From Calliopum simillimum (taxonomy: Eukaryota; Arthropoda; Insecta; Diptera; Lauxaniidae), in assembly GCA_951812925.1 (NCBI GenBank), contig OX638369.1, positions 15,405,329-15,469,328 on the forward strand: a DNA stretch of 64,000 nt, read 5' to 3'. Below the pieces are notes generated by a model, which searched no databases, had not been told where the DNA came from, and saw only the letters and a program-made list of their open reading frames with translations. The position numbers and the translations under genes were made by a program. Shown here piece after piece: positions 757 to 40,144 of the stretch; position 1 is the first letter of the stretch, and each line of letters opens with the position of its first letter.

Positions 757-842
757 AACCAGATAAAATTGAGGTGTTTAGCGAAAATTTTAGATGGAAA
801 ATAAAAACTTCTGAGATACAAAAATTTTATATGGATTTAGGC

Positions 843-4346: not shown

Positions 4347-5980
4347 TGTGGCTTGTACGTATTAGGAGTGCCACAGCCATAGCAGAAAAAAATTCTTTGG
4401 GCCAAACAGTCTTCCCAATGATGACCTTCTTCGGAACAGTTCCAACACTTCATTACTTTTAAAGCAACTTCGTCAATGGAAAAGTCCACTTCTGGTTCTA
4501 AATTTAACCTATCAATATTTTCTTCAATCGCTGAAATATTTTTTCTTGACGAATTTGGAAAATTTCTTGAAATTTGTGTACGACGGTATGTTTCATCTGA
4601 GACTAAGTTTTCTCTCATTTGAACAAGCTTACGTAAGTGAGCAATCGTATAGATTGGGACATATAATAGTTCATGCCGGATTTCCGGTCTTAAATTTCGG
4701 ACTAAAATTTCAACTAGTTCTTCTTCTTCAATAGGTCTAGAGAGTTTATCCATAAGAACAAATACGGCATCGTAAAATGTTTCAAATGTTTCGTTTGAAA
4801 GCTGTTTACGACTTCTAATATTTTCTAAATAATCAACATTAGACCTATAATCTTTGTACTGATATTTAAGGGCAGAGCAAAATGTTCTCCAATCGAAATT
4901 GGGTTCCACCTTGTGATACCTCCAATACCAGTCTCGAGCTTTTCCGTGTAACAAAATATGAATATTTTTGCAAACAGAATTAAAATCGCTATTTAAGGCA
5001 CTTGACGTTAATGATTGAATTCTATAGAGAAATTCTTCCACTGGCAAACCATTCGATGAACCATCAAAGCGACAATTCCAATTTTGAATAATTTGTGTAA
5101 CCTTATCCGCCCTAATGTTGCAGTTTCTATTTGAGCTTGCAACCAAATCTACATTCAAGTTTGAGGTATTTGAAACTACCCTCGGGTGTGCCTCAGCATT
5201 CGCATTGCTGGCTGTTGGTAAATTTGATGTGCGATTTGAGGTTGATTCACTATTTTGTGATTCATTATTATTGATTGGTGGTGTATTTGGAATGCTATTA
5301 GCATTTGAAGCGTTTAGACTTAAAGAAGCAAATCGACGATCTATGACCGTTTCAATCATTGCCGTAATATGATCATAATTAATGCTTTCTTGAACAACTC
5401 TTGACCAAGGACTATCTCTATTAGGTGCAGGTGGCGTATGAGTAACATGATTACGATTTGAACTATCAGTCAAATTACACAATGGCAATGAATTTTTTTC
5501 ATTATTCACGTTTCCGCTAGATACATTAGTTGGTGCACGAGGTGGCTTGGAAATAGCACCCAAAGCAGTATCTTTTAGCCGACTTGTATAGCTTCGTGTA
5601 CCGTGTTGTTTTTGTGTGAAAGACCCACGACCACGAGTAAAACCTTTTGGACGAGCTGCATTGCTTTGGTATAAACTGGCTACTGAATTCGCAACTGATA
5701 TGGCATCGGAAACCGATGTTGCATCTAAATTTGTTTCAAGTGTTTTAGCTGGTAATTTAATTGTTTTTAAATCACGTTTATGCATAAGAGTGCCACAAAC
5801 GGGACATTCATGATTTTCTTTAAGATGAGAGTCTATGCATGCATTGTGAAATACATGTGTACATTTAGTTACACTACAGTCCTGCTCAACAATCATTTCC
5901 TGTAGGCAAATAGAACATATACCTCCAGATGGTATATCCAAAAGACTTGATAAATTTTCACTGCTGTGACTAACAACCAT
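4268..5980 (-). CDS. gag: Gag of retrotransposon A with N-terminal RING-H2 finger
   Basis: A 570-codon structural protein. Residues 22-62 form a complete RING-H2 (C3H2C3) finger: C22-x2-C25-x14-C40-x-H42-x2-H45-x2-C48-x10-C59-x2-C62. RING-H2 fingers typically recruit E2 ubiquitin-conjugating enzymes; whether this one is active is unknown. A Ser/Asn-rich linker follows, then a capsid-like region (about 290-480, containing WYWRYH). A nucleocapsid CCHC knuckle starts at CWNC (about 510-523, C-x2-C-x4-H-x4-C). A second cysteine cluster (about 529-542) keeps the cysteines but has Thr in place of His. The ATG at 5980 is the first after an in-frame TGA just upstream. A RING finger is not a usual Gag domain. 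It lies in the same uninterrupted frame as the capsid and zinc knuckle, so it is not an artefact of joining ORFs. Confidence 0.9.
   Translation of the reverse strand: MVVSHSSENLSSLLDIPSGGICSICLQEMIVEQDCSVTKCTHVFHNACIDSHLKENHECPVCGTLMHKRDLKTIKLPAKTLETNLDATSVSDAISVANSVASLYQSNAARPKGFTRGRGSFTQKQHGTRSYTSRLKDTALGAISKPPRAPTNVSSGNVNNEKNSLPLCNLTDSSNRNHVTHTPPAPNRDSPWSRVVQESINYDHITAMIETVIDRRFASLSLNASNANSIPNTPPINNNESQNSESTSNRTSNLPTASNANAEAHPRVVSNTSNLNVDLVASSNRNCNIRADKVTQIIQNWNCRFDGSSNGLPVEEFLYRIQSLTSSALNSDFNSVCKNIHILLHGKARDWYWRYHKVEPNFDWRTFCSALKYQYKDYRSNVDYLENIRSRKQLSNETFETFYDAVFVLMDKLSRPIEEEELVEILVRNLRPEIRHELLYVPIYTIAHLRKLVQMRENLVSDETYRRTQISRNFPNSSRKNISAIEENIDRLNLEPEVDFSIDEVALKVMKCWNCSEEGHHWEDCLAQRIFFCYGCGTPNTYKPQCAKCALRRSENFTKGAFKPRMPPKT
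4278..4319 (-). other. Candidate gag-pol frameshift region, retrotransposon A
   Basis: Inside the gag-pol overlap the coding strand reads GGAAAAC (4319-4313), then 8 nt later a hairpin with a 6 bp perfect stem (GCATTC/GAATGC, loop 7 nt) extended by GGG/CCC across one A-C mismatch. Pol is in the -1 frame. GGAAAAC is not a canonical X-XXY-YYZ heptamer. The only formal XXXYYYZ string is AAAGGGA, which abuts the stem and has an unfavourable GGG. The structure is clear; which bases slip is inference. Confidence 0.4.
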
Positions 5981-6923
5981 TTTAGATAAAAAATTAAATC
6001 AAAATTGATATATAAAAAACTTGGAAATAAGTATTTATGCAAAAAAAAATATAAGCCTTACAAATGTTCCGTTTTGGAGTATTTCTCGAAATAATAAATT
6101 TTTTTTTTTTTTTCTTTTTGCAACCAAGAGAACTAAAATATAGATATGATGAAAAAAAAATATTTTTGAACCACGTTCTATCGTTAAGGAATTTTGTTAT
6201 GCAAATGGCGTATTCCAACCGTGTGCGACTTAATTGTTTAAAATTCTGATCTCTTTTAACCAAAAAAAAAAATTTAAATTCAAATCAACTAAAAATTTAA
6301 AAATGATATAGTAATTTCCTTATTAATGTGGTAGGTGTTAGTGACGTAAAGTGCTGCATGTTATGCATGGCGTAAGAGGATAACAAAAAACTAGTCTATG
6401 GTGTTTACTTAAAAAAAATATGCGATAGTTTGTAAGATATTCTTGTGAAATGGCTGAATCATGTACAACAAATATCCTATTATATGATCGGACAAATAAA
6501 TGCTCTAAGACAATATAAGTGCAGCATAAACTTGTTTTCCAAGTATCAAACAATAGCAACCAAAAATTCTATCAACAAAAAAAATTACATAATCGCTTTG
6601 AAATTCTTTGTCCAAATACCATTTCTGTAACCATTGATATGAAAAGAAACTAAGCATTGCCAAACGGTCGATACAATTCGGAATCCAAGCCAAACTGTCG
6701 AAATTCCAGGAATGGATACCAGATTTATTTCACTCCCAACAAATTACCGAAACAATACCTGAAGAAACAAAATCAATAAACTATCAAAAAAAAATTGAGC
6801 TTGAATAAAAAAATAAATAATCGAAATTAAGGGACCGACAGGACCAACAAACAGAAAAAATCATTAAAACTAAATTGCATCCAAAAGGAGGATACAACCC
6901 AAAAAAAATTACCTTATTTGTCA
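5981..6923 (-). other. 5' leader of retrotransposon A
   Basis: About 940 bp of noncoding, A/T-rich sequence between the primer binding site and the gag start. It contains homopolymer runs. I see no ORF or structured element that I can name. Confidence 0.6.
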
Positions 6924-6941
6924 GCCCCACGTTGGGCGCCA
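6924..6941 (-). other. Primer binding site, tRNA-Lys(CTT)
   Basis: On the element strand the sequence is TGGCGCCCAACGTGGGGC. It is an exact 18 nt complement of the 3' end of insect tRNA-Lys(CTT) including CCA, as I know that tRNA. It lies 6 nt inside the LTR end (...TGTTACA), as expected for a minus-strand primer site, and this fixes the inner LTR boundary at 6948. Confidence 0.88.
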
Positions 6942-6947
6942 AAATTT

Positions 6948-9467
6948 TGTAACATGCATTCAAGATTTTTGATACCTTTTTTATATTTAGGGGTAGAAGG
7001 ATTTTGTCGGGACTTCTGGGAGCAGCTAGCTATTCAGCCTGTCGGGGGTTCACCGTAATACCCAAATATACCTTGTTGCAAAATTTAAATTTATAAGTCC
7101 CTAATGCCTATATTTATAAAAACAATAAAAATAATTCTAGACTGAAACCAATTAAAGCAATGACCTAAAAAAAACTATGAAATCTTTCAATTAATACCAG
7201 TTATCCAAAACCAACTGAAACTAAAAAAAAAACCAATATTTGAAATAAATCATAAAAATAAATCTAAAGGGGGTTATCCACCTTAACACCACGCAAAGGT
7301 TGACATCTTTTGGTAACATTTAGATGTCCACTCTGTACCCGCCCAACCATGATCCCCAATTGAAAATTTTGTAGGAATCCCTTTTGCAGGCCTACGTCAC
7401 TTTACCACAAAGGAAATCACATTGAGATTTTACAAATTCATTTTCGAAATTTACAATAATTTATTCAAAAAAAATTAGATATCAACTTAAAATTACAAAA
7501 ACAAATTTTGCTAGTTAGCATAATAAGAAAAAAAAATCAAGAGATTTTTTTAAGGATTATTCCTTTAAACTACTAAAACATATTTTTTTGTTTTTTTTAA
7601 ACTTTAAGATGTTTTTTTTTTTCAATTCAGTTAGAGTTAAGTTTTTTTTTTTTTTTTTTCTGGTTTTTAACAAAAGAAAAATAGATAGAATTTAAGCATT
7701 TTTTTTTTATAGAATTTAAGATAAAAAGATTTAATAAAAATTATAATAGTTTACTAACTCACCATATTATCAGCGCAGAAAGACCCTTCATTGTTGATCT
7801 GGTTGCATAGGTATTTATATGTTATGATAAGTTTAATTCATTATTATATATGTACTTAAATTCTATGCACTTGACCTACTTATTTGATTTTACTAGTCAC
7901 TATTTTTCTAAACAAAGAATTTTTTTTTGATTTTTGGCAATTGAAGTTGACAGCTATAACACAAATCCTTTTTCTCTTTTCGAAAACGAAGTTAGAAAGC
8001 AAAAGCGGTGTTTTGTTTGTTTTTAACAACAGTAAAGTATTTTACCAAGAGTGGTAGCAAATCTGTTTTTGCAAACACAATGCTTTTGCGTTCTCTCTTG
8101 CGTGCGATTTTGTTTGCGTGCGTTTTTTTATACAAGATTTTGTTATTGTGTGATAGCTGTTAATTTTTTTAGGTTGTTTTTTCTTATTTAGGTATTCAAT
8201 ATATATATATTTTTTTCTCTTTATATATAGATTTGATTTTAACTATTTTTCTGTTTTTTTAGGGGTTTTTTTTATATATATCTATAATATTATAGATTAA
8301 CTTTTTTTTTTTTTTTTAGGAACTACAATTTTTGCTCAATTTTGCTTACTTATATTTTTTATCTTTTCCGATTCACTTATTTCCTTTACTTTTATATAAA
8401 TATCTGTCTAATTTTATTTATTTCACTATCTTTAAATGGAGGTTTGTTTTTCTATCTTCTGTAGTTCAAAAACACTAGCTTAATCACTTAAAATTTTAGA
8501 ATTTAACCAGATTTTAGGTACTAATCACTGCACTATTAATGCGGCCAATATGCAATTGCCGAAAACTATGGTTTATGCGTTTGTTTTATGTAACATCTGC
8601 GAGTAGACTGGTGGAAGAAGTTTTTTGATGAGATGTTGAGAGTTGTTTGGTGATGATTTTGCTTCTTCTGCGTTCGCAAAAACGGTATTTGCCATAAGCA
8701 AAATGCTTTACAAAAAATGAGGGTAGGTGAATGGCTAATGCATTCCCCTACATTAATCGATCTGTTTCAAAAAAAATATTCACTGGAATTTTTAATGTTT
8801 AAGGAATTTAAATTCAATATATTTACCATTAGTTTTCTGATGATCATTTAGCTAACGATAATTTAAATCAGTTGATCAAATATGATCAAGAAATGAAGTT
8901 TTGTAGTTTTTCTTGAAATAGGAACTTTCCCAAAAAATATACTTTTCTTTAGACGTACAGTCACAAATGATGAAGGCAGCAAGATAAAAGAATTATTATT
9001 TTTACAGACTAAAAATTAAAAGTTAATCACTGATGTTGCTGCAATTATATATAAATTTGTATACTAGATTATATGTATACCTTTAAATTTTCAGGCAATT
9101 GGTGTGGACGATCCGAACTCGTGTAAGTCTTCTTAGGAAAGAACGATCACCAAAAAATTATAATAGTAGGAAGTCTAAATTTGAGTACTAAAATATGGTC
9201 GATGATACTTGTCATGCTGACCCGGATATAAGTAATATTTTACAGTACAGTACATAACTCATTTTAGAAGAGAGTGCTGCCAAAATAAGGAGTACGTTAT
9301 AGAAATATCAGATTTTTACGAAAAAGTTTCGCAACTTTTGTTAAATTTGACTTATAGCAAAAATAAATCAAAAATACAAGCAACTTTGCAACAAAAAATA
9401 ATAAGAAATATCATTAGTAGAAATAAATTCATCACACCTTCAACTCATCAAACACTTGTACATTACA
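6948..9467 (-). repeat. 5' LTR of retrotransposon A (2520 bp)
   Basis: The inner end (TGTTACA on the element strand) is set by the primer site 6 nt away. The outer end (TGTAATG) is set by loss of identity with the other LTR after 9467. The termini are TGTAA...TTACA. At 2.5 kb this is far longer than most fly LTRs. It carries many T-rich tracts. No ORF of interest is seen. Confidence 0.85.
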
Positions 9468-10360
9468 CATATCTACACTTTCATTATCAAATCAGTGCTT
9501 TTGGATGCATTTTTGGCAAGTTAGAGCACAAAATTCCCAAAAAAGTGATATTTTTCGCCTTTTATGACATTCGGCTCAATAGAAATCACCCGAGTGGTGG
9601 ATTTATACCTTTTAACCTATAGCCAAGATCCATACGAACACTTTGATATAATATATGTGACATAAGGGCAAAAATTTCTCAAGTGAGCCATCTAAAAAAT
9701 TAAACATAAAAAAGGCTTTAACAAAATGATGTTTTATAACAACTAGTAAAGATTTTGTAAAAATGTCAGATCCGAGTAAACTTTTGTCGACCAAATTTTG
9801 TTCCACAGTGTTATTTATCATTTTGAAAGCATGACCACTAGAGGTGAAAAGATACGAATTTCATCACAAAAAATAGCTATAAATAATATCGACTAAAATA
9901 ATAAGATCAGATTGTTGACCGAGCAGGGATCGGTCTCCAGCTACTAAGGGTTAAACTACAACTTTATGCAATTTTCTACAGTTTTTGTTATAAAGTACCA
10001 AACAAACATGGATCAGATGACATTGTAGTTTTATTAAAAACACCAACAAAATTACAAAAATAAGACAAAATGCATAAAGGAAAACAAACAAATTTATTGG
10101 AAGGCTGGTTTTCGTTACGTTTCAAAGATCACCACAACCATATCATCATACGAATTTGCCGATATCCAAAAGAACTTGACAATCATACTATAGTTAACCT
10201 TTTGCATAGACTTGTTGAGAACCACAGCAGAAAGTAAATACAGCACATGCAATAGTTCTAATTTTTTTGTTTTTCCCTTGTTATGCATCGGCCTGCTGTT
10301 GTAACTTCTTAATATTATAGTTTTTTTTGCATAACGCATTCATTTGCAAGCTTATTCGTC
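9468..10360. other. Noncoding flank/intron between retrotransposon A and a MITE
   Basis: No exon is recognisable here. It contains the dispersed repeat described at 9812-9947. The rest (9948-10360) is unremarkable AT-rich DNA. Since the first visible PP2C exon is internal, this is most likely intron. Confidence 0.5.
9812..9947 (-). repeat. Dispersed repeat, inverted copy of 22251-22377
   Basis: About 130 bp including GACCGAGCAGGGAT is the reverse complement, with a few mismatches and small indels, of 22251-22377. Neither copy codes for anything. It is probably a fragment of an unnamed repeat family. Confidence 0.75.
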
Positions 10361-10700
10361 TTAACCCTTTCGAACCGGTTGGGACAATATATCCCAAAAA
10401 TTTTTGTATAAATACTTTTGAATAATATAACTCGGTTATTAACGTCACTTAAATTGAATGAATTAATAAAATTAATGCAATTTTTAGTAACCACTGTTTT
10501 TTCTTATAACCACTCCAAGGACATTGTATCCCGAAAATTCAAATGAAAAACATCTGTTGGGAGTGTAGACCGGAAGTGCCTCTGGCGGTGAAAATTTGAT
10601 TTTAGAGACGGTCAAACATTTTACTTAAATTTAGTTTCTAAGATTAACCTATCACAAATATTGTGTACCCCACAGTTTTTTTCCGGGTCGAAAGGGTTAA
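10361..10700. mobile_element. piggyBac-like MITE (TTAA-flanked)
   Basis: Inverted ends TTAACCCTTTCGAACCGG (10361) and, reverse complemented, TTAACCCTTTCGACCCGG (ending 10700) differ at one base. A TTAA target duplication followed by termini starting CCC is the hallmark of the piggyBac superfamily. The roughly 330 bp interior has no ORF, so the element is nonautonomous. It ends about 90 bp before the first visible PP2C exon. Confidence 0.7.
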
Positions 10701-10789
10701 GGGCTTTTGATTTTGAAATAGATAATTGCTTCTTTTATATAGCACTTAATTTAAATAGAATCTCATATGTTATCTTTCTTATATTACAG

Positions 10790-11101
10790 TTTCATCATTG
10801 AGGAAAATGTTAATAACAATACTGGAATATCATTTTTTGCCATTTTTGATGGACATGGCGGTGAATTTGCAGCAGATTTTGCTAAGGATATTTTAGTAAA
10901 AAATATTTACAATAAAATTATTGAAACGACAAAATTACTTGGCAATCAGCAATCACTGGCAGCAAATGCTGCTAGTATCGATGCCGAGTACAGTGATTAT
11001 GATACAAGTCCATATCTCAACCGAAAATCAAATCGAAAAGATGAAAGCAATAAAGAGAATGAACCAGTAAGGAGGCGTGACAGTCTTCGAAAAACTCACA
11101 G
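10790..11101 (+). CDS. CG7115-like: PP2C exon (first visible)
   Basis: The acceptor is ATATTACAG and the donor is CACAG/GTAAGT. It starts on the third base of a codon and ends after two bases of one. It encodes the FFAIFDGHGG metal-binding motif and the start of the polar insert. The ATG at 10767 is in the intron and is not a start. Confidence 0.9.
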
Positions 11102-14100
11102 GTAAGTTAATGCATACGTTTGAAACACATAAGCATGCTGAAGGGCTAATTTTTCTAGACTTGGTATTTAAGTTCTATTTAAGTTCGTATTGAAACAAAA
11201 AAAACAGTATCTTTTTAGTTGGTTTCTTATATTTTGGAATTAGCCTTAAAACGTAAATTTGTTTTGTTAAATCAAAATATATTTTGAAGATTATAAAATT
11301 AACTAATAGGTGGTCTATTGTTAGAACTGTTTTAATGGTTGTCTTATAGAAAGTAAAAAAGCAAAATAATTAATTTATTGTTTTATATATTTTTTTTTTT
11401 ATGAAAAAAATTAAAAATGTTAAATGAAAGTTCATAAATGATTTTTCATTTACTTAGATTTTTTTAATTGATATTAATATTTTTTTTTTTTTTTTTCTAC
11501 TTCTGTATTGCTCAATTTATGGCGGCATTAATTTTGCATTGAGAAACATTTTAAACAAATAAATAAAATAAACATGTGCAAATCATTTAGTTCAAGTAAT
11601 TTTTGGTTTTTAAATAAATTACGCTACACCGCAGACAAAAGCATCAACAAATTCTTTAGTTAAAAATTAGACAGACATTGTTTTTTATTATGTATGATTT
11701 ATTTCTTTTTACAATTACATAGATATATACAATATCTTATCCTATTATTTCCATCGGCTATTGTGTATATACATTATATATTGTGGGAGTAGCTGTAAAA
11801 ATTTTAAAGCCCATGATTCTGAATGAACAGAAACGACCAGAAAACTTGGTGCAATTGTGCTACGCCATTTTCTGGGAGACATTAAATTAAATAAAGCAAG
11901 TGGGTGGCAGTGCAATAAACTTTACGAGAGGTCGAGGAATTAACCTACGTTCAGTTCGGCTCGCTGGGGTTTCAATGGTGGATCTTCTCTGTGTATATGA
12001 TTTGCAGGTGCATCGAAACCATCATGATCATTTGGATATGTATATTAAGTGAGCAAGGAATCTTTAGATCTTATACTGCAAGGTTGTCTTGCAGAGTCGA
12101 TAGGTGTGATGAAAATGTGGAAAAATCGGCTTTCGGAGTTTCATTTGTACAAGTTTTATGATGAAAAAAATGCAAACCCCAAAATCGTAGCTGATCATCT
12201 TCGCAAAATATCGCGAAAACACATATTCCATGTAAAAAAAAAAACTGAAAAAACACGAGAATCACAAAAAATAGTAATTTTCGATTTGTTTTGCGATGCT
12301 GAACTCGAATCCGGCTTAAGAGTTGCTCTATCTCATATAGTTTTTGAGATGTACTAACCTTAACAAGTGAAAGACCATTTTTGTTATTTTTTTTAAGCTA
12401 TAAATAACAAAAAAAAGTTCTAATCTTTCTCTTTAAAACCTAATTTGAATTATTTCGATGCCTTTATTTTTCTCCGAAATATCGTAGACTGAAATAATGA
12501 AAAAACATGTTTTTACACTTTTTGAACTTTTCAGTTACGATATTTCTGAGAAAAATAAAGATATCGACATAGTTTTAATTAGGTTTTAAAAGAAAATAGT
12601 AGAGTTCTTAATAACTTTATCGGAATTTACGGATGAACGTTTTTGTTTGTTTGGATTAGAATATCTCTGAGGCCAGATTCGCAAAAATAACTATTGCATT
12701 TTTTTTAACCATAAAACTAGTAGAGTAACTTCGGGTAATGTGATATAGGCGGGTAATGTGATATACCAGCATATTTCCTTAAATAAACAACTCTCGATAA
12801 TGATTTTTTCGTCAACACCACAGTAACTGAAAAAGAAACTTGCTGCAAGTTTTTGAGCGCCCACCTTTATTTATTCTGCCTTCAGTGTGGTAAAATCGAT
12901 TTAGTAGTGAAAAAAAAAAACTTTATTTGTGTGCTTTATGTTAGGATCTATCCTAAACTAAAATTGATATCATAGCCGCAATAGTAAATTCTGCTAGTGG
13001 GTGAATATACCTAACCATAAATCAATTGAATTTTTTATTTGCTAGAGAGTGTTTTTTTCAATAATAACCTGATTGTTTTAAAACTGAATTTCGGGTAATG
13101 TGATATAGTGCACTTCTGGCACCGAAAATATTTGATGTTCCACTCGCACTGCAAAATGATTCGCACGATGGTCTTTTGGCCCAAATCTAAAACGTTTTTC
13201 CTTATTAACAATTTGTTGGTGCAACATTTTTATATAAAGGTCACAGTTTTTAAGAAAAATGAGCTTAAGCTTTGTTAAAGCGATTTTAGTAATGTTTATC
13301 ACTCCTTACCTGAAGTAAAAGTTCCACAACTAAAGTTTCTTCATAACACGATGATCTTTTTGCCGAAAATGCAATTTGTTGGGATATGGGATATAGTATA
13401 TCACATTACCCGCCAATTTTGTTTTTTAACTTTTTTTGCCTTTTTTCAATTTTGTTGAAATAGCTTAAGATTGGCTGACGCTATAGAACTCCAAAATCAT
13501 AATATACTGCACAATACATCAATAAAACATAATACATAAAGTGATAGCAGCTATGCTTTGAAAACTACGAGTAATTTAAAAAACAAAAATGCCTATATCA
13601 CATTACCCGAACTTACTATATTTACAAATAAAACTCTGAAAGCCGATTTACATTTTCATAGCACCTATCGAGTCTTCAAGACGACCGTGACTATAAAGGG
13701 GATTGAAAATTCAATAAGTTTGATTTGAATTCGATAATCAATTTAAACTTCTTCCCGGAGCTGATGGGATATGTTGGCCAGGCGAAAATGATTTTTATGT
13801 AAAGGGTACAGGATTTCCACTACAATTTAATGATATATGTATTCGTTTTAAAGATATAGTGTTTTGAAGTTAAAAAAATATTACTGCACGAAATAAGCTG
13901 TGAGCCACTGTATTTTCAATTCAATTTAAACTTTTTCCAAATCAATTTACACTTTTTTCAAATCAATTAAAACTTTGGAAAAAACACGCTTACAATCATA
14001 TATCTCTGCACCTACAGGTGCTATCGTTATGTACCATATATTGATTAATATTGTGTCTACATGTAGTTGCAGAGATATATCATTTCAAACGTGTTTTTTT

Positions 14101-17100
14101 TTTTTTTTTTTTTGAAAGTTTAAATTGATTTGAAAAAAGTTTTTTTTTGATTTGGAAAAAAGTGTAAATTGATTTGGAAAAACAGGAGGTTAATTTGATT
14201 TGAAAACAGTTTATTTTGATATGGAAAAAGCTCTGCCGTAAAAATATATAAGGCCGCAACTTAAGTTACGGCCTTTTTAACTTTATTTCCCCATCGGATA
14301 AAGCAATTTTTTATCTATATTTTAGTCCAATCGCCAATTTTTTTTACGTTTTCCACTTCTCTTGCAAATTGCAAATAAAGAAATGTAAACATAACACCCT
14401 GCTTTCATATTTTTCATAATTAAAATCATAAAAGGCAGTAACTCCATACAAAAAAATATGAAAAATGAAACAGATTTTATAAGTAAGAGAAGTTGCTGCC
14501 TTTTCTGAATAAAAACAAAATTTTGATTTTCTCAAAACTATGAAAAACGAGTTGCGTCTTTTCATAATTTTACGGCAGAGCTTATTTTGATAAGCTTATT
14601 TTGATATGGACAAGTTTTTTTTGATTTGGAAAAAGTTTAAATTGAATTGAAAAAGGATCAATTTAGTGTGGAAAAGGTTTAACTTGGAGTGGAAGTCCTG
14701 TACCTGTACATAAAAATCATTTTCGCCCGGCCAACATATCCCATCAGCTCCGGGAAGAAGTTTTAATTGATTATCAAATTCAAATCAAACTTATTGAATT
14801 TCCAATCCCCTTTACAGTCACGGTTGTGTCTTGAAGACTCGATAGGTGGGATGAAAATCTAAATCGGCTTTGGGAGTTTCATTTGTTCTAGTTTTATTGT
14901 AAAAAAAAAATACAAACCACGAAATGCTGAATGCGAATCCGGCCTCAGAGATATCCGAATTGGGCTGAACGAATTTGAGGCTCCCAGAAAAAACACCAGA
15001 AAATTTTTTGGAAATAAAGCCATATGTTTTGTCATAAATTTTTGGAAATATGTAAAGCCAAAAATTACCTTAGAAGTAAGTTCGCATTATTCCCAAAACA
15101 AAATGGAAATAACGCCAGAATTTTTTATGTAATTTTTTCAGCTTTGTTTCCTATGGCATTATTTCCTATTTACTTTTTGGTTTTATTTCCAAAAATTAAT
15201 GCCAGAAAAAATTTTAAATCGATTTTAAGTTAATTTTAGTGGACAGAATTTCATTAAGGAAAGCTGAGCTAGCGGCTATTCATTGGTGAATGTTTGCTTA
15301 TTCGTAAATACGAGTTATTTTCCATTCACATGCATACGTATAACATATGAAAAAATACAGTTTGTAGTGTTTTCAATAGTTCTAACGCCATTAACTTCTA
15401 ATTTTTACATATGTTTGTACATTACTTTTCAACAAAACAAAACATAAATAAATAAATAAAACTAACATGCTTCTCATTCCTCAGTACGGCTGATGACTGC
15501 ACTAAACAACAGGCGACCAACCCAAAAGAGACCGATGTCTTCACATCAAAGCTGAATTCGCTGATGCGTGGCAAAGACAACATTTTCACAAGCAACAACA
15601 ACAATAAAGATGGTAACAGCGCAACCAACTCAGCTGGGCCACCACCAAACTTTGATGCCAAGTGTTATATAGAAAATGGAAAAATCAATTTTGGTAAAAT
15701 GATTACTGACGAAGTGTTAGCAGCTGATTACAAATTGGTTGAAGCCGCAAAGAAAACGGTTAGTATATTTCTACATATGTATATGCACTTTTATTTGTGT
15801 AAGTACAGATGTGTACAAGACTAATTAACTAATTTATATTTATTTTTATCAATAGATTAACATCGCAGGTACAACTGCGTTAATTGCTATCATACAAGGT
15901 AGTAAACTCATTGTGGCCAATGTTGGCGATTCCCGCGGTGTTATGTTTGACTCACGTGGATTTGCAATACCACTATCATTTGACCACAAACCACAACAGG
16001 TGACTTTATTTTTTGCCATCATTTTTTTTAAAAATGACTTGAACAAACTCTTTAATAACAGGTACGCGAACGCAAACGCATACATGACGCGGGTGGTTTT
16101 ATCGCTTTTAGAGGAGTTTGGCGCGTTGCTGGTATTTTGGCGACATCACGTGCACTGGGTGATTATCCATTGAAAGATAAAAATCTGGTCATAGCAAATC
16201 CAGATATTTTGACATTCGATTTAAACGATCATAAGTAAGTACATACATGTCATTAAATTATAAATACAATGATCGTGTACACTTTTATTGTCGATTATTG
16301 TTATGATTAAGGAAAGTTATAGCTGCCACACCCGTAGTTACAAAAGTAGTTGTACAAACGAAGTAGTTGTTTTAGGTCTGTACTGCGAATTACAATGCAA
16401 TTAAGATACGTTGCCTGATGGGTAACTTAAACTGAAATTTGCTACAGATCAGTTGCTTAAACTGGCAACTAAAGCAACTATCTTTTTATTGGATTCAAAT
16501 GAATGATAGTTGTGTCTTCTCCTCAAAAAAGATATTTTAGATGATCTAAAAAGTAGGCCGAGAACTGTTTTCATTAATCTTAGTACTAAGTATTAAAAAT
16601 AGTACTTTTTGCCATATAACTAATTTTTAAATGAAAGGTAATTTTTTTGCTTCCCAAAAAATATATTTTGGAAGGTCCAAAAAGTAGGTAACGCAGCGTT
16701 TTTAGAAGTTCAGTACTAAAATAGTAGTAAATTTAGTACTTTTTACCATTTACGAAAAATTTACTTTGTGGTTATAGCCTGATTCAATACCTTTTCAAAA
16801 ATGGTCTGAACATGAAACGTCCAAGTTATTGACAATTATGTGAGGAGAGTTTGTCACAATTTTCCAAATTTTTGCTTTCTTTGCATCCATTCACAAGCCA
16901 CAAAAAAAATCACAAAATTATGTTTTTGCCTTTTATATAAGGCATTAAACTAAACCATGTACCTAATTTCAGAAAATTCGGAAGGAGTGTGGCAAATTTT
17001 GTTACGTTAGTCATGGAATGGCAATTTTTCGGTTTTGAAAATGGTTTCGGGTGGTCAATCAAATGTTCTCTGAAATGAACCAAAGCTTACATTGTGCTTA

Positions 17101-18245
17101 ATTACACCAAAACGAAACTTTTGGTGACGGGTGAACGAAATTCCGAGCAGTTTTTTTTTCGAATCAGTCTAATACCCACTCAAATCATGTGAGGAGTAAG
17201 TAAGCCTTCAACTAACAACCTTTAAAAAACCTAAAAATTTCGTCGGCGTTATATTGTTTGCTCTGGTTCAGAATCAATCACAAAGAAGCCATGTTTCCAA
17301 GGGGAACTCGTGATTAAAATTCGCAGTTTCGTACTTCAACAACAACAAACAAACTTATTTCACAAATTTTTACAAATGGAAGATAAATATTAAGAAGAAA
17401 TAAAAACTACTTTGATTTTCCCGCTTATGACATTAACTGTCAAAAATAAATCTATTTCGGCCGATAGAAAACGGTAGGATTTAACGAAGATATTTATAGT
17501 ACTTATCACAGCTAAATCTCCGGTAGATACGTAGTATTTTAAGCTTTGCAATTGAATAGCTGAGTGCAAGAATATGTTAAGTGATAATTAAATAACTTTG
17601 AGATGATCAGCTTTTAAGTTGCTAAAATACCCTCGAATGTTTGGGTGTCGTTAGAAAGAAATTCCAACAAGCTGTAAAATGGTGCACTTTTGAATATAGC
17701 TTCAAAATATAGCATACTTTAAATTTGTTCTTTCCTTTTTTTAAAATGTCACTTGACATGTTCAACCACTCAGCTCTTCAATTGGTAATGTGATTTGAGA
17801 TGTAGCCATATTATTTGTTATACTAACCGATTGATAAAATAATTGATAATTGATGTATTTTTTCAAACATAGACCATCATTTCTTATACTCGCCTCCGAT
17901 GGACTGTGGGACACATTTAGTAATGAGGAAGCTTGTAGCTACATCAAAGACCACCTGAATGAAGCTGATTTCGGTGCCAAAAGCTTAGCCATGCAATCTT
18001 ATTATCGTGGTTCTGTAGATAACATAACAGTACTGGTGATTGTGTTTAAAAATGGAATGTATCGCATAGCATCAGCTAGCACAGCAGCAACTAAGTCATC
18101 ATCATCATCGTCGTCAGCGGCGACGGGAGCAGCCGCCACTTCTCTACCAGTAGCAGCATCAGCAGCAGTTATCAAAACACCCACGAGCGGAGCAGCCGTA
18201 TCGATAAATCGTTCTAATAGCGGTTTAAGTAACAAATTAAAATAA
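10790..18245 (+). CDS. CG7115-like: PP2C-family Ser/Thr phosphatase, PPM1L-like (5' part missing)
   Basis: Five in-frame exons encode most of a metal-dependent protein phosphatase closest to vertebrate PPM1L and fly CG7115: 10790-11101, 15485-15758, 15856-15999, 16062-16234 and 17873-18245. All junctions are GT-AG and the codons join cleanly. Conserved PP2C motifs appear in order: FDGHGG (metal site), GTTAL, ANVGDSRGV, the DHKP block, SRALGDYPLK, ASDGLWD and DNITVLV. Between the first two is a fly-type polar insert (NKENEP...NNNNKDGN), and the C-terminus is Ser/Ala-rich. The upstream motif around R-x-x-M-E-D and the start codon are absent, so earlier exons lie left of the window. PPM1L is an ER-anchored phosphatase acting on stress-kinase pathways in vertebrates; the same role here is inference. 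I compared these sequences from memory. Confidence 0.93.
12080..12320 (+). repeat. Partial copy of the fold-back repeat arm
   Basis: It shares GTCGATAGGTGTGATGAAAA, the phrase TCGGCTTTCGGAGTTTCATT and a later CGAATCCGGC with the arm at 14826-14960 in direct orientation, and with 13630-13690 inverted. It is a diverged, separate copy of the same family. Traces of the same text (TCCGATTCCGG, GAATTGCTCTAT) also occur near 28840. Confidence 0.65.
12420..12605. repeat. Short palindrome, arms about 75 bp
   Basis: Text around CCTAATTTGAATTATTTCGA on the left returns inverted and slightly diverged as TCGACATAGTTTTAATTAGG on the right, centred near 12510. No target duplication was identified. Confidence 0.65.
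12651..14972. repeat. Fold-back (long inverted repeat) element, interrupted
   Basis: The left arm (12651-12720 plus 13620-13840) matches the right arm (14690-14972) in inverted orientation, including CTCTGAGGCC, GCTTTGGGAGTTTCATTTG and GGGCGAAAATGATTTTTATG-like text. The interior (13900-14690) is a degenerate array of AAATTGATTTGGAAAAAG units in both orientations, with a second small palindrome centred near 14040. A short hairpin (AAGGCCG/CGGCCTT) lies at about 14249-14278. The left arm is split by the MITE at 12725-13617. Confidence 0.75.
12725..13617. mobile_element. TA-flanked MITE with internally repeated terminal motif
   Basis: The terminal text GTAACTTCGGGTAATGTG (left) and its inverted partner GTAAGTTCGGGTAATGTG (right) carry on as ATATAGGC. 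Dinucleotide TA flanks both ends (12721-12722 and 13618-13619). The word GGGTAATGTGATATA also recurs inside: directly near 12752 and 13092, and inverted near 13397. There is no transposase ORF. It sits inside the left arm of a fold-back repeat; the uninterrupted right arm shows the empty-site sequence. Tc1/mariner or pogo ancestry is inferred from the TA target. Confidence 0.75.
15485..15758 (+). CDS. CG7115-like: PP2C exon
   Basis: The acceptor is TTCTCATTCCTCAG and the donor is ACG/GTTAGT. It completes the split Ser codon of the previous exon and ends in phase 0. It encodes the Asn-rich polar insert (NNNNKDGN) and the helix leading to VEAAKKT. Confidence 0.88.
15856..15999 (+). CDS. CG7115-like: PP2C exon
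   Basis: The acceptor is TTATCAATAG and the donor is CAG/GTGACT; 48 codons in phase 0. It carries GTTALIAI, VANVGDSRGV and SFDHKPQQ, all diagnostic PP2C core blocks. Confidence 0.92.
16062..16234 (+). CDS. CG7115-like: PP2C exon
   Basis: The acceptor is TTTAATAACAG and the donor is ATAA/GTAAGT. It encodes RERKRIHDAGG, FRGVWRVAG, SRALGDYPLK and PDILTFDLN. It ends after two bases of a Lys codon completed by the next exon. Confidence 0.92.
16235..17872 (+). other. PP2C intron, 1.6 kb
   Basis: Bounded by GTAAGT and CAAACATAG. AT-rich; I see no repeat, RNA gene or ORF that I can support. Confidence 0.7.
17873..18245 (+). CDS. CG7115-like: PP2C last exon with stop
   Basis: Starts after CAAACATAG. 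It encodes FLILASDGLWD, SNEEACSYIK, FGAKSLAMQSYYRG and DNITVLVIVF, which end the catalytic fold. A Ser/Ala/Thr-rich tail of about 60 residues encoded by simple repeats (TCA/GCA) follows, to TAA at 18243-18245. A polyadenylation-type AATAAA overlaps the stop region (18241-18246), but later signals are more likely used. Confidence 0.92.
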
Positions 18246-20099: not shown

Positions 20100-20983
20100 C
20101 ATAGTTGCCCAGGGCGGTTAGAGAAGTAGAATGTAAGACCAACACCAATTATTTTTATCTCAACATTTTTTCCGAGCATACTTACCCCTTAGAGGGGCCC
20201 CCTGCAAAAATTACATATTTATGAAATTATCTTGCCAACTTCCAGGGAGCCTCGGATGGGGTAGAACGTAAGACCAACCTCCATTATTTTTGCCCCCTCG
20301 ACATTTTTTCTAAGCATACTTACACCTAAGGCGGACTTCCTAGTATAAATTACCTTTTTTATGAAATTGCCTCGTAAAAATTACTTTTTTATGAATTTGA
20401 CTCCTTCCACGTTCAGAGTGCTCATGGTGGGGTAGATTCCATTGTTCCATTATTTAGCTCCCTCCCTCCCCAACACATTTTCCGAACAAACTTTACTCCT
20501 TCAGGGGACTCAGCAAAAAAAAACTTTTTTATGAAATTAACTCCCATCACTTTCAGGGAGCCCCTTCTGGGGTAGAATGTAAGACGAACTTCCTTTATTT
20601 TTCCCCCTTAAAATTTTTTCTGAATATACTTGTCTCCTATCTCTACCCATAAGGGGGCTCCCCAGCAAAAATTAACTTTTTTATGAAATTGCCTTGTAAA
20701 AATTACTTTTTTTATGAATTTGACTCCCTCCGAGGGTGCCCATGGTGGGGAACACGTTTGCCGATCAAAGTTTACCCCTATATCTACCCGTTAGGGGGAC
20801 TCCCCAGCAAAAATTTACTTTTTTATGAAATTGTCTCCCATCACTACTCCCAGTGGAGTAGAATGTAAGACCAACTTCCATTATTTCCCCCCTCCCCCCA
20901 ACACATATTCCGAACAAACTTTACTACTCCTAAAGAGGACTCCCCAGTAGAATGTAAGACTAACTTCTAATATTTTTACCCCC
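20100..20983. repeat. Degenerate tandem repeat (period about 170-200 bp)
   Basis: At least four imperfect units share blocks such as TTTTTTATGAAATT, GGGGTAGAATGTAAGAC, CCGAACAAACTTTACTCC and CAGGGGACTC. The array is split by the composite at 20984-22090 and resumes at 22091 with the next block of the unit. No coding potential. Confidence 0.7.
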
Positions 20984-21007
20984 AAGGAACGGATTAAAAA
21001 CACGGCT

Positions 21008-21054
21008 ATAGTGACATATGTTTCGTCTTTCGCCACAAAGACTCATCAGACTAT
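21008..21054 (-). ncRNA. Hammerhead ribozyme, type I, copy 1
   Basis: On the minus strand this is an exact copy of the ribozyme at 21873-21919: the CTGATGA core, a 6 bp stem II, GAAA, a 3 bp stem III, the cleavage triplet GTC and a 5 bp stem I. It sits in the inverted left core of the composite, so the two ribozymes would act on opposite transcripts. Confidence 0.88.
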
Positions 21055-21142
21055 TTTTGTTGTAATTATAATTATATTTATTTTACTAAATTAATTATAA
21101 TTGAAAAATTGCAAGTTTGAAAACTTTTTGTGTTTTTGGTCT

Positions 21143-21210
21143 GGGCGGGAGACGAACCAAGGATCTCCAGGTTGGTAGCAGAAGTCGTTACCACTGCACC
21201 AGCCTTGCCC
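21143..21210 (-). other. tRNA-like region with Pol III A and B boxes, copy 1
   Basis: Minus-strand copy of the tRNA-like text at 21717-21784: A box TGGTGCAGTGG (21201-21191) and B box GGTTCGTCTCC (21158-21148). See the + strand copy for detail. Confidence 0.65.
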
Positions 21211-21396
21211 GGCTGCGAAGCCGACTTTTTGCCAGTTTTATTTGTGTGTTAATACGTATTGATATATCATAATTATTGTTTTGTGTTATTTATTGATATT
21301 TGGTATAGTTGTTCCTTTGGAACAAATTCAAAACCGATTGCAGGTGTTTCCACCTTATCAGGGCGTGTCACTATAGCCGTGTTTTTAATCCGTTCC

Positions 21397-21545
21397 TTGA
21401 TTTGTCATAATTATGTGTTAGAAAAATGCATTGATAGATTTATATGTAAATCGATCTTTGCAAATATATGACTAAAAGTTCAATTAAATAAAATCAATTT
21501 TCAATATAAAATGTCATTAAGTAACACACTTAAAAAATTCTTAAA
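21397..21545 (+). repeat. Direct repeat D1 of the composite
   Basis: About 149 bp starting TTGATTTGTCATAATTATGT and ending TTCTTAAA. It is repeated at 21942-22090 with at most one or two differences (for example CTTTGCAA versus CTTTACAA). It follows the shared ACTATAGCC-GTTCC segment in both places. Confidence 0.9.
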
Positions 21546-21716
21546 GTTATTTGGGGGAACACGCCCTGATAAGGTGGAAACACCTGCAATCGGTATTGAA
21601 TTTGTTCCAAAGGAACAACTATACCAAATATCAATAAATAACACAAAACAATAATTATGATATATCAATACGTATTAACACACAAATAAAACTGGCAAAA
21701 AGTCGGCTTCGCAGCC

Positions 21717-21784
21717 GGGCAAGGCTGGTGCAGTGGTAACGACTTCTGCTACCAACCTGGAGATCCTTGGTTCGTCTCCCGCCC
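21717..21784 (+). other. tRNA-like region with Pol III A and B boxes, copy 2
   Basis: A box TGGTGCAGTGG (21726-21736) fits TRGYNNARYNGG and B box GGTTCGTCTCC (21769-21779) fits GGTTCGANNCC, 32 nt apart. GGGC at the start can pair with GCCC at the end. A full cloverleaf does not fold convincingly, so I call it tRNA-derived and not a tRNA gene. It may supply an internal Pol III promoter for the ribozyme-bearing unit, as in SINEs. Confidence 0.7.
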
Positions 21785-21872
21785 AGACCAAAAACACAAA
21801 AAGTTTTCAAACTTGCAATTTTTCAATTATAATTAATTTAGTAAAATAAATATAATTATAATTACAACAAAA

Positions 21873-21919
21873 ATAGTCTGATGAGTCTTTGTGGCGAAAG
21901 ACGAAACATATGTCACTAT
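21873..21919 (+). ncRNA. Hammerhead ribozyme, type I, short stem III, copy 2
   Basis: All conserved positions are present. Stem I is ATAGT (21873-21877) with ACTAT (21915-21919), 5 bp. CTGATGA is at 21878-21884. Stem II is GTCTTT/AAAGAC (21885-21890 with 21897-21902), 6 perfect pairs with loop GTGGCG and G-C as the first pair. GAAA is at 21903-21906. Stem III is ACA/TGT with a 2 nt loop (21906-21913). The cleavage triplet GTC ends at 21914. RNA ends enter through stem I, so it is type I. A minimal stem III is known from Penelope-like elements and animal retrozymes and is usually active as a dimer. Confidence 0.92.
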
Positions 21920-21941
21920 AGCCGTGTTTTTAATCCGTTCC

Positions 21942-22090
21942 TTGATTTGTCATAATTATGTGTTAGAAAAATGCATTGATAGATTTATATGTAAATCGAT
22001 CTTTACAAATATATGACTAAAAGTTCAATTAAATAAAATCAATTTTCAATATAAAATGTCATTAAGTAACACACTTAAAAAATTCTTAAA
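21942..22090 (+). repeat. Direct repeat D2 of the composite
   Basis: Second copy of D1, directly downstream of the + strand ribozyme and its GTTCC-ended 3' segment. It ends exactly at the right target duplication. Confidence 0.9.
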
Positions 22091-22250
22091 ATTTTTACCC
22101 CCTTAACATTTTTTCTGAATATGCTTATCACCTATCTCTACCCGTCTGTATGTTTTGTCTTTTATATTTGCCCATTCCTCTTGAAAACAGCACACCTGGA
22201 CCAGACATTGGGCCGAATTTGGCTTCCAATTTCGCTTTAATACTCAAGTA
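22091..22250. repeat. Right remainder of the degenerate tandem repeat
   Basis: It continues the array unit interrupted at 20983 (TTTTTTCTGAATATGCTT, TATCTCTACCCG) and fades out into unique sequence by about 22160. Confidence 0.65.
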
Positions 22251-22590: not shown

Positions 22591-23456
22591 ACACAGGTTT
22601 ACAAAAAAAAATGTCATGGCGTTTTGACCAGACTATGTGTTTCCTAGGGACTTTGACGTCCTGAAACCGAATCAGGGGTCCGTTTTTTTCCAGAACGTCT
22701 GAGAAAAAAGATTTCAAGGTCAAATGGAGGTCAAAATGGGGTTCATGCGTCGTTTAGTGATAAATTCGCTAAAACTCTGAAACTAATTTTTTATCATTGA
22801 GTTCTTTGTCCTTAAAAAGAATATGTGATCAAAAAGGGTATCTCGACCTAGTTTCGGAGATGTGGCCATCGGAAGATCCGGATATATTTTCTATGAAAAC
22901 CGCTATAAGTTGGGAACCCCTGGATGGATTTGAAAAAAATTGGAGTCATATGAAAGGTAATTTGACAACCTCTAAAAATATTTTCAATTGGATTCATAGT
23001 TTTGGAGATATGACCTTTTTGAAATTTTGAGAAATTTTTCAATTACAACAACAAATACATCAACAAAACCAACAACAACATAATACCTTTCATATGACAC
23101 CAATATTTTACAAATCCATCCAGTGGTTCCCAACTTATAGCGGTTTTCATAGAAGATATATCCGGATCATCCGATGGCCACATCTCCGAAACTAGGTCCG
23201 AGATACCCTTTTTGATCACATATTCTTTTTAAGGACAAAGAACTCAATGATAAAAAATTAGTTTCAGAGTTTTAGCGAATTTATCACTAAACGACGCATG
23301 AACCCCATTTTGACCTCCATTTGACCTTGAAATCTTTTTTCTCAGACGTTCTGGAAAAAAACGGACCCCGGATTTGGATTCAGGAAGTCAAAGTCCCTAG
23401 GAAACACATAGTCTGGTCAAAACGCCATGACATTTTTTTATTTTGTAAACCTGTGT
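22591..23456. repeat. Long palindrome (arms about 370 bp), family P1
   Basis: The left arm (22591-22965) and right arm (23086-23456) are inverted near-copies, with outer text ACACAGGTTTACAAA and TTTGTAAACCTGTGT. The roughly 120 bp centre includes a CAACAA-rich stretch. A block with GTTGGGAACCCCTGGATGG and TCATATGAAAGGTA also occurs in the palindrome at 54990-56306. Small ORFs in it are mirror shadows, not genes. No transposase is visible. Confidence 0.88.
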
Positions 23457-25425: not shown

Positions 25426-26338
25426 CAGTCTGTTAAATAAGAGCGTGGTCATTGTTGTGAGAAAATGAAAATACCCATTGCGAAAATTCTTTTTAATATT
25501 GATTTATTTGATCGAAAACTTCAATGCAAATACATTAATAGCAGGTCCAATCACCCCCAGCATCAATTATAGCTTGACATCTTCGCGACATACTTTGAAC
25601 AAGATTTTGCGCATACTCTTCTGAAAACGACCTCCAAATTTTGTGAATGCGTCGAACCAGCTGTTTCAAGTTGCAGGGTCGGTTTTTCCAGGCATGCCTG
25701 ATGATAGGAAAGGCCCAAAAAGAGGATTCATCAGTGAAGATAACGTTGCCCCAGTCACGATCCAAATTGTCTTTGGCCCATTCAAGACGTTTTTGGACAT
25801 GTTTTTCACTGAGCATCGGTTTTTGCAAAGTACTTCGGTATTTCACACTATTTGCAATCAAATGATTACGAATAGTTCCGTGGGAGATATTCAAACCTTT
25901 TTGGGACAATTTCGAAGCACCTTCACGCAAAGTTAATGTTGGATTTTTCGAAAATAGAGCACAGATCAGTTTTTCCTGTTTTTCCGTCACTACACCGACA
26001 GACCCGCGATTTGGAAAGTCATCGACATTTTTTTCTTCTTTGAAGCGATTCACCCACTTACTCACAAACTGTTTCGACTTTTGCATATACTTCGCAGCCG
26101 CCGCTTGGGTCATTTTGGGACCTTTGGGGTGCAAACACAAAAAAACGGCTTCAAAGCGCGACGCGTACGCGGTACTCATTTTGGAAAAATGCTGAGAACG
26201 CATTGAAAAGAGTGGTCAGCTGATTCACTTTCACGAAGCATGAAGGACAATACTGCCCTCTGTGTGAGAAAAAAAAATTACAGCATTATACTTTACCGAT
26301 CGCGAGTAATCGTGACCACGCTCTTATTTAACAGACTG
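25426..26338 (-). mobile_element. Tc1-like element, internally deleted (913 bp)
   Basis: Terminal inverted repeats begin CAGTCTGTTAAATAAGAGCG and continue as TGGTCA at both ends, flanked by TA duplications (25424-25425 and 26339-26340). The matching unfilled TA site is present in the tandem MITE copy near 24614. It carries one truncated transposase frame, so it is nonautonomous. Confidence 0.92.
25535..26203 (-). pseudogene. Tc1-like transposase with internal deletion
   Basis: The 222-residue frame has the paired N-terminal helix-turn-helix region (TQAAAAKYMQKSKQFVSKW, then an RGSVG hinge and a second helix set). It reaches the first catalytic aspartate in FTDES (D158), then jumps from about residue 187 (VRRIHKIW) to the family's C-terminal motif (MSRRCQAIIDAGGDW). 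The block with the second and third acidic residues, usually about 120 residues, is missing with the frame kept. It cannot catalyse transposition but could still bind the element ends. The upstream ATG at 26203 is used here; MSTAY a few codons later may be the original start. Confidence 0.88.
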
Positions 26339-36540: not shown

Positions 36541-37982
36541 CGAGCCAGGAATACGCGAACAACAATAAGATAACCAACAGTTGGCCAACAGAAGACAGAA
36601 AACAACTAAAAGCAGCAACAAGAGCAGTTTAATTGGTAAGTACGGTGTCACGAAAAGAGGAAAAATAGAAAATCCGTCGATAATTTGGTAGATGTAACAT
36701 CTAACAAATTAGGAAAAAAAAAAAAAAAAATTTTTTTTTAGTAAAGGAACGAATAAAACGTTTGATTTTCGATAGATGTAACATCTAGCGAAAAATTGAA
36801 CAAGTTCCTATAGAAAAAACATAACTACAATAGGAGTTTAAAATTTTTTTTAATTTACCGGTAAACTGGCTTCCCCCACCCGTGGTAAGAAGTCAGTTGC
36901 GTGAAATCGGTCTGGGAAAAAATAAAGTAAAGGAAAATTGTGAAAAGTGAAGAGCAAAGTGAATTAGAAAATCCATTGCTATAGGGGAGAAACAGAAAGT
37001 TTAAAAGTTTCATTAAAAACTGTTTTGTTAATTGTTAATCGGCAATAGCTAATTCAAATTTGGTTTTAATAGTGGTCTTTGTGTAGGATTTCAGAAGTTC
37101 TTGGTAGAATTAATTACTAAGTATTTGGGAATCTTATGTGAAGGGCTATTAAAGGCAAATCTAAGGTGCTATCTTTGCCGAGGAAGAGCAATTCTTTTGT
37201 TTGAACAGTTTACAAATTTTAAAGCCACTTCATAAGGGGCTGAAGTTTGTAAAGTCTTCATTGAAGTCTTGTTCTCATAACCGGGAAATCTTGCTGGTTT
37301 AGTTTTGGGTTCTCAAGAATTATTTTCAAGTGATTCAAGAGTTCCGTATCGATCAGCAAGATTACGAAAAATTTTAAGTGCAAATAAAACAGTAATTATT
37401 TGATAAAACTATTTCTGCCTTCACGGAGGAAATAGAATAAAATTCATTGCTACCGATCAGCAACTAAAAGCTTTTATGCATATCAAATTCAAGCAAGAAT
37501 AACAAAAAGCGAAAAAGTAAAAATTTCATTTGGGTCATTAGCTTTGTTTTTATTTGCGTTCATATACCTAAAAGCTTTATATGCGGAATAATTTGGTTAA
37601 TGTAATTTTGCGATAGGTCAGGAACAAGAAAAACAAAGAATAATACAAACACTTTCAATGCAAGTTCATTGCACATAAAAAAGCGAAGTCAGCAGTTTTT
37701 ACCGAAACTTCTTCATGGCTTTAATGCAAGTGTAACTTGGATCTTTTGTTTATAAATTGACAAGCAACAATAAGAATATTTTTTTTTGCTGCAACAGTAG
37801 CAACGATAAATGAAAAATTTAATAAAATTTCGATTTGCATTAGCGTAACCTAGAACTTCAGTTGGGACAATTTTATTTGTTTCGTTTGTTTATTGCATCT
37901 AACAGTGGGATAATTAAACGCAAAACCGAAAATATTTTTCTTCTTTTACTAGTAGATTATTTTTGTCTTTCTTTTCAATGGA
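36541..37982 (+). other. Leader of retrotransposon B
   Basis: 1.44 kb untranslated leader, A-rich, with several short upstream ATGs. No structure recognised. It is long for this group. Confidence 0.6.
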
Positions 37983-40031: not shown

Positions 40032-40066
40032 AAAGGGCCCAGCTTCAGCCAGACAACTGGGAACCC
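40022..40066 (+). promoter_or_regulatory. -1 ribosomal frameshift signal of retrotransposon B
   Basis: The slippery heptamer G-GGA-AAC (40022-40028) is in the gag reading phase and directly precedes the gag TAA. After a 6 nt spacer a stem forms: GGGCCCAG (40035-40042) with CTGGG-AA-CCC (40057-40066), 8 pairs with a 2 nt bulge and a 14 nt loop. The Pol frame is -1 and is open from 40019. Heptamer, spacing and stem all fit the standard eukaryotic/retroviral model. Confidence 0.88.
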
Positions 40067-40144
40067 AAAAATAAAGAGAAAATAACAAATGGTACAAATG
40101 GAAAAGTAAGTCATACACTGAATACAGTAGTTGATCCACTTTCC

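Follow-up and report, generated by a model that had tools for sequence, protein, structure and literature searches.

What does a hammerhead ribozyme motif do in the DNA of a fly, and what brought it there? The question is raised by a 64-kb stretch of DNA (the whole of which we call the window), where a motif with the anatomy of a type I hammerhead ribozyme (HHR) lies on the plus strand at 21873-21919, and for which an initial annotation had described a pair of ribozymes, one on each strand. From the HHR anatomy, its copy number, the tandem arrays, two clusters of array ends, target-site duplications (TSDs) and the presence in the same genome of Penelope-like element (PLE) genes with HHRs, we propose that a non-autonomous retrozyme inserted once into the DNA of the window, and we consider it quite probable that this retrozyme was moved by a PLE enzyme acting in trans.

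The hammerhead motif and the insertion that carries it

All HHR parts that the initial annotation had named are in register in the 47-mer that starts at 21873, namely CTGATGA, a 6-bp stem II (GTCTTT/AAAGAC, with loop GTGGCG), GAAA, a 3-bp stem III with a 2-nt loop, GTC and a 5-bp stem I (ATAGT/ACTAT), and the cut is predicted after 21914. The 37-nt core is found exactly twice in the window, on the plus strand at 21878-21914 and on the minus strand at 21013-21049, which agrees with the annotated minus-strand copy at 21008-21054, and it was found in 0 of 100 shuffles. A covariance-model check, which the annotation had suggested, formally fails: Rfam gives no match at gathering scores anywhere in the window, and its best sub-threshold hammerhead, Hammerhead_3, reaches 22.7 bits, where the cut-off is 48.5. 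MIR7533 and the remaining sub-threshold Rfam matches were taken as chance or palindrome effects. In isolation the motif is also no more stable in its fold than shuffles are (z -0.53 and 0.02), and it is by register, copy number and retention that the HHR is supported.

A search for further genomic copies had been proposed, and many were found. The pattern of core plus stem II, CTGATGAGTC N6-16 GACGAAAC, has 1,002 + 1,043 = 2,045 matches in the 690-Mb genome, a count that includes the HHR type of chromosome ends, and its reversed control has none. The annotation had also asked whether all core residues are lost in other copies; the exact core is kept in 49 of 52 full units from 21 arrays. The hammerhead motif is thereby confirmed as real, above chance by copy number and retention. 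The sequence ACATATGT around stem III is self-complementary, and the HHR appears to be dimer-capable there.

The two copies of the motif do not represent two functional polarities, as the idea of a pair would have it. They belong to one insertion, which is flanked by the 12-nt TSD ATTTTTACCCCC (20972-20983, identical to 22091-22102) and starts with a head-to-head inverted arm at 20983-21368 on the minus strand. This arm, which holds the minus-strand HHR, comprises unit positions 190-545 and then 1-30 according to the BLAST map, and is 100% complementary to 21559-21944; for its left end the aligner gave unit 545 and BLAST unit 30, and unit 30 was adopted. The full retrozyme unit, in which position 1 is the first base past the HHR cut, occupies 21370-21914 (+), and its 545 nt, equal to the repeat spacing, bear out the earlier estimate of more than 500 nt. 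A partial second unit follows at 21915-22090 (+) and ends at unit 176, within the second of the two start sites described below.

The unit has 31.7% GC, its longest stop-free stretch, measured in the dimer, is 60 codons, and no ORF with reverse transcriptase (RT) and GIY-YIG domains was found in its 545 nt; it shows the marks of a PLE, yet it is not a PLE. Its circular fold is more stable than those of 60 shuffles (z -6.5), with 57% of it paired, which is less than the 70% that PMC4918200 reports for metazoan repeats. An A-box-like TGGTGCAGTGG at 21726-21736 (+) and a B-box-like GGTTCGTCTCC at 21769-21779 (+, one mismatch), recognised by pol III type 2 consensus sequences, lie 43 nt apart. With one mismatch allowed in total, no other pair of this kind exists in the 64 kb; the pair is present in both element copies and has an equivalent in 8 of 2000 shuffles, which suggests a possible transcription by pol III; neither ARAGORN nor Rfam found a tRNA in the unit.

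Other repeats share the window with this insertion. Two gypsy/Ty3-like LTR elements lie at 843-5998 (-) and 37956-43984 (+), the former with an upstream ORF with a RING finger ahead of the Ty3-capsid match. A long fold-back repeat is located at 22605-23439, with arms of 241 and 120 nt (98% and 93%), and a Tc3/mariner-type transposase fragment at 25535-26215 (-).

Array ends, Penelope-like elements and the proposed mode of insertion

The unit family is dispersed. A genome search gave 209 matches in 40 scored loci, the best 40 of 1,545 first-look candidates, that is, the closest copies and not a random sample. These loci are short arrays spread over all six large contigs, and they contain, among the matches listed, one to ten full units, mostly of 543-548 nt. 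Units differ on average by 3.1 within arrays versus 5.8 between them, a within-array value as low as this being reached in 0 of 500 label shuffles. Four variants are fixed and private to an array (shuffle mean 0.04, largest 4), and some are fixed throughout their array (7/7, 5/5, 5/5). Over all arrays with at least two units there are 24 variant cells, 10 fixed and 14 polymorphic, and two arrays, L032 and L035, mix unit types. Repeated copying of a circle would be compatible with many of the arrays, which is not to say proved by them; one circle per array does not predict the two mixed arrays and the 14 of 24 polymorphic cells, and a multimeric linear template keeps some probability.

A relative of this family, sharing unit positions 301-540 at 72-79%, gave 41 matches in 40 scored loci, compared with 209 in 40 for the intact family. 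It carries a perfect B box and is mostly solitary among the scored loci, and its HHR is broken (CTGATGT, CGTAAA) in both loci read, L061 and L091; at L061, which is the same place as L090, two copies stand in tandem.

The outward 3' ends of the arrays gather in two clusters, with a chance extension of a few bases, and we take these clusters for start sites of reverse transcription: putative site 1 at about unit 124-137 (21493-21506, +) and putative site 2 at unit 173-178 (21542-21547, +), with an AC-rich hairpin 1 between them, noticed by eye (TTAAGT-AACAC-ACTTAA, 21517-21533, +). Array boundaries, the list of ends and 36 internal 5' ends were compiled by hand, and the site classes (115-143 and 164-184) were fixed after the ends had been inspected. 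Of 40 arrays inspected, 24 have both ends readable: 19 by letters, C5_1018, C5_63706 and C6_2039 with one end by letters and the other by search rows, and C6_13946 and C6_18581 by genome-search rows plus a later reading of the ends. Eighteen of the 24 (17 independent, L049 and L050 sharing their junctions and counting as one) have one end at site 1 and one at site 2, and none uses the same site twice. The remaining six combine site 2 with an end elsewhere, at unit 30 in the window copy, 100 in L032, near 92-98 in C5_71831 (whose left end, 185 by the aligner, was read by eye as site 2), 457 in C6_2039, 300 in C6_13946 and 292 in C6_18581. For independent 50:50 ends the one-of-each pattern has a chance of 2^-17, or 2^-14 without three of the 18 arrays whose ends are loosely placed (L033 at 169, C5_45578 at 166, C5_81563 at 116). 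Among the 14 one-ended arrays site 1 accounts for 8 and site 2 for 6, which shows that both start sites are used; L044, one of three arrays with N runs (the others being L036 and L038), was counted here, its left side being unreadable. C5_70944 and C5_79064 make up the rest of the 40 and fall in neither group.

TSDs of 12-14 nt flank 12 of the 21 arrays tested among the 40, while 2.4% of 418 mismatched left/right pairs reach at least 10 nt. The 3' ends that were read have no common poly-A tail. Of 36 internal 5' ends, seven fall within unit 400-412 (window 21769-21781), a concentration that 80 of 20,000 random sets matched; it lies beside the B box and is perhaps a structural stop.

A lizard PLE begins reverse transcription at a pair of neighbouring internal sites, which are alike between the strands; it cuts and extends both strands, and the tail that lies between its start sites is a hallmark in the genome (PMC11167929). 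Rotifer PLEs may or may not carry such a tail on one of their inverted pLTRs, and their TSDs measure 8-10 bp (PMC3846280). In their anatomy the retrozyme arrays match this published pattern of insertion, and the enzymes are at hand in the same genome. It has 51 GIY-YIG matches, a few of which look bacterial, and in PLE families A and C, 31% identical in protein, RVT_1 and GIY-YIG are joined in one ORF; two copies of family C have an 841-codon frame and are 99.5% alike over 2.9 kb. Minimal HHRs lie behind the ORF in families A, B and C. As a side observation, some contigs are possibly of non-host or organelle origin: C50 and C58 have COX1 with 10 TGA codons, C211 and C219 have COX1 without stops, and C104 and C183, possible non-host contigs as well, bear UvrC-like ORFs by our own reading. 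The sizes of the large contigs, given below, and a COX1 that looks brachyceran make the dipteran host named in the initial annotation plausible.

A further resemblance concerns the hairpin GGG-GGAACACG-CCC at 21553-21566 (+), similar to hairpins 3' of insertion ends in PLE families A and C. In these, CGGACSGCACGCC lies just 3' of the insertion end, 6 nt away in family C and 2-8 nt away in four of nine family A rows (the other five comprise the reference, which accounts for two, two more that stop about 55 nt further downstream, and one whose end is far upstream); in the retrozyme GGGGGAACACGCC lies 8 nt 3' of site 2, and GGNNNNCACGCC adjoins the insertion end in all three. A similar hairpin is placed beside the start site in two of three PLE families checked. 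It was not found in family B, which was set aside as a driver for this reason. The 13-nt hairpin of families A and C agrees with the retrozyme at 8 of 13 positions, equalled by 59 of 2000 shuffles near site 2 and by 977 of 2000 anywhere in the unit, and is too weak in its full length as proof of a PLE match; GGNNNNCACGCC, a motif chosen after being seen, occurs in 1 of 2000. The hairpin link is suggestive, and the paired start-site pattern of the ends is stronger PLE evidence than the hairpin.

PLEs were proposed as movers of animal retrozymes because both co-occur (PMC7229834). The paired start-site footprint adds structural support for such a link, and the question becomes testable with one protein and one RNA. 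The footprint also suggests a rule of PLE chemistry by which every insertion is primed twice, once at each start site.

We propose that pol III, with the A and B boxes inside the unit, probably transcribes multimeric retrozyme RNA, that the hammerhead would cleave this RNA to monomers of 545 nt, and that a host ligase would close these into circles. The PLE reverse transcriptase/GIY-YIG protein, in trans, would then make a staggered cut in AT-rich DNA, and each of the two freed 3' ends would prime on the retrozyme RNA at a start site of its own, site 1 or site 2. Rolling along the circle would yield tandem units, a head-to-head meeting of the two cDNAs the inverted arm, and fill-in the 12-14 nt duplication. 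Here self-cleavage, circles, the use of pol III, priming on both strands and a driver PLE of the family A or C type are what we infer; counterpoints include the off-site ends in 6 of the 24 two-ended arrays, among them the left arm of the window copy, which stops at unit 30, and the start sites of the lizard PLE, which showed no difference from strand to strand (PMC11167929).

The explanation that comes next to this one retains the PLE and takes as its template linear multimeric RNA transcribed from a genomic array, for which the ribozyme is not needed. HHR cleavage is unnecessary for PLE insertion in vitro, and PAc inserts unprocessed RNA, with HHR mutants having no effect on insertion (PMC11167929); the two mixed arrays and the 14 polymorphic cells point in the same direction, while the variants fixed within their arrays, the HHR kept intact and the mostly solitary state of the relative with the broken HHR argue against it, and we give this template about one chance in a few. 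Ordinary satellite DNA, spread and homogenised by unequal crossing-over or gene conversion with the HHR as a passenger, is improbable: it would account for tandem arrays, some of them homogeneous, and for the long constant-period arrays at contig ends, but not for short scored arrays on all six large contigs, TSDs around 12 of 21, 3' ends at two sites and the HHR core in 49 of 52 units. A SINE mobilised by a LINE, with pol III RNA, LINE target priming and an HHR acquired by chance, is improbable to much the same degree: the A/B-box pair (unique in the window at the mismatch limit used, and found in both element copies) and the mostly solitary broken-HHR relative fit it, whereas multimers, the lack of a poly-A tail common to the 3' ends that were read and inverted two-ended inserts with internal start sites, a PLE trait, do not.

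A single retrozyme insertion moved by a PLE enzyme is our preferred reading, and it supports the initial interpretation in part. The catalytic-RNA motif of a mobile element close to retrozymes and PLEs appears to stand, judged by anatomy, copy number and insertion marks; the two-strand pair does not, and the start-site signature, the A and B boxes and the relatives at chromosome ends had been missed.

Related units at chromosome ends

Among the matches listed, related HHR-bearing units of 385-410 nt form tandem arrays within 4 kb of the end at six of the twelve ends of the six large contigs (five of 117-163 Mb and one of 20 Mb). All six arrays are sense-inward, four have a constant period and three reach the last bases. 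On C1 (+), at whose first bases the first matches of the core pattern lie, rows with a unit of 406 nt are spread over bases 1 to 3539 and leave two stretches unmatched. C3 has an array at its left end (387-17,124, +; 398 nt, 43 matches) and another at its right end (-; to 124,334,185 of 124,334,187; 385 nt, 19 full rows). The right end of C4 (-) is occupied from 119,467,553 to at least 119,488,074 of 119,491,850 (410 nt, at least 50 matches), the left end of C5 from 801 to 9,720 (+; 402 nt, 23 rows), and on C6 (+) irregular rows extend from base 1 to 55,892. The search that gave the C3 left and C4 right arrays had 99 matches in end arrays and 1 in the interior among the matches listed (100 of 206); a B-box variant of the chromosome-end type is also dispersed, with 567 matches.

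The 406-nt unit L094 (C1:400-812) aligns to window unit positions 1-100, 180-213 and 316-542, being without about 101-179, the start-site region, and about 214-315. It keeps the HHR, stem I, the hairpin GGGAGAACACGCCC and both boxes, these without mismatch in the chromosome-end unit, from which the AC-rich hairpin 1 is absent.

In Drosophila the telomeric retrotransposons have their sense strand inward, like the arrays found here, and priming by a chromosome end, with the 3' side of the RNA being copied, would be expected to give this direction. We may tentatively suggest, giving it a minor share of our belief, that the chromosome ends are capped by a retrozyme: a hammerhead-processed circular RNA would template a PLE-type, telomerase-related RT in rolling-circle extension of the ends, and the dispersed 545-nt family would be the internal inserter, equipped with start sites, one per DNA strand. 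Such extension would leave each end with its own unit length (406, 398, 385, 410 and 402 nt). (TTAGG)n is unexpected in a fly; (TTAGG)4 has 37,685 matches in the genome (267 for the reversed control), and the matches listed (100 of 37,685) are all in one interior array, C1:4599144-4599678. Diptera lack telomerase (PMC12051294). The telomeric role is a lead and not a result, as an assembly may break within a tandem array and leave a contig end there; no title on hammerhead units as insect terminal repeats was among those listed in the open-licence literature, which is weak evidence of absence. If the arrays are at real termini, they would join two puzzles, the role of ribozyme repeats and the maintenance of chromosome ends in those Diptera whose terminal repeats are long and complex.

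Comparison with known systems

With respect to retrozyme criteria, we find here an HHR in each unit (by anatomy, not by Rfam score), a non-coding tandem repeat, GC below 45% and HHR-bearing PLEs. Metazoan non-LTR retrozymes of coral, mussel and axolotl share with the present family the type I HHR, tandem non-coding units, low GC, TSDs of more than 4 bp and HHR-bearing PLEs in the same genome (PMC7229834). They differ in unit length, about 170-400 against 545 nt, and the minimal 3-bp stem III and the A and B boxes belong to the present unit and not to the retrozymes of that study; head-to-head arms and paired start sites have no description in the parts of it consulted. The schistosome SINE-like elements Sm-alpha and Sj-alpha also combine an HHR with tRNA-related sequence in a short repeat; they have a recognisable tRNA (PMC2770079, PMC4918200), whereas the present unit has only the boxes and no tRNA by ARAGORN or Rfam.

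For the HHR units at chromosome ends the nearest system is that of the Terminons, telomere-attached PLEs of rotifers, which likewise bring together HHRs and chromosome ends; Terminons are giant, protein-coding and placed on simple telomeric repeats (PMC6431247), while the units described here are short, non-coding and in tandem. The long complex terminal tandem repeats of Diptera are similar as terminal arrays of a few hundred bp that differ between ends; their upkeep is discussed as uncertain, and the paper in question makes no use of the word hammerhead (PMC12051294). PLEs themselves share with the present arrays two internal RT start sites, the inverted 5' arm, the TSD, the HHR and tandem copies (PMC11167929, PMC3846280), and unlike them the present unit, without an ORF of note, would have to borrow a PLE enzyme.
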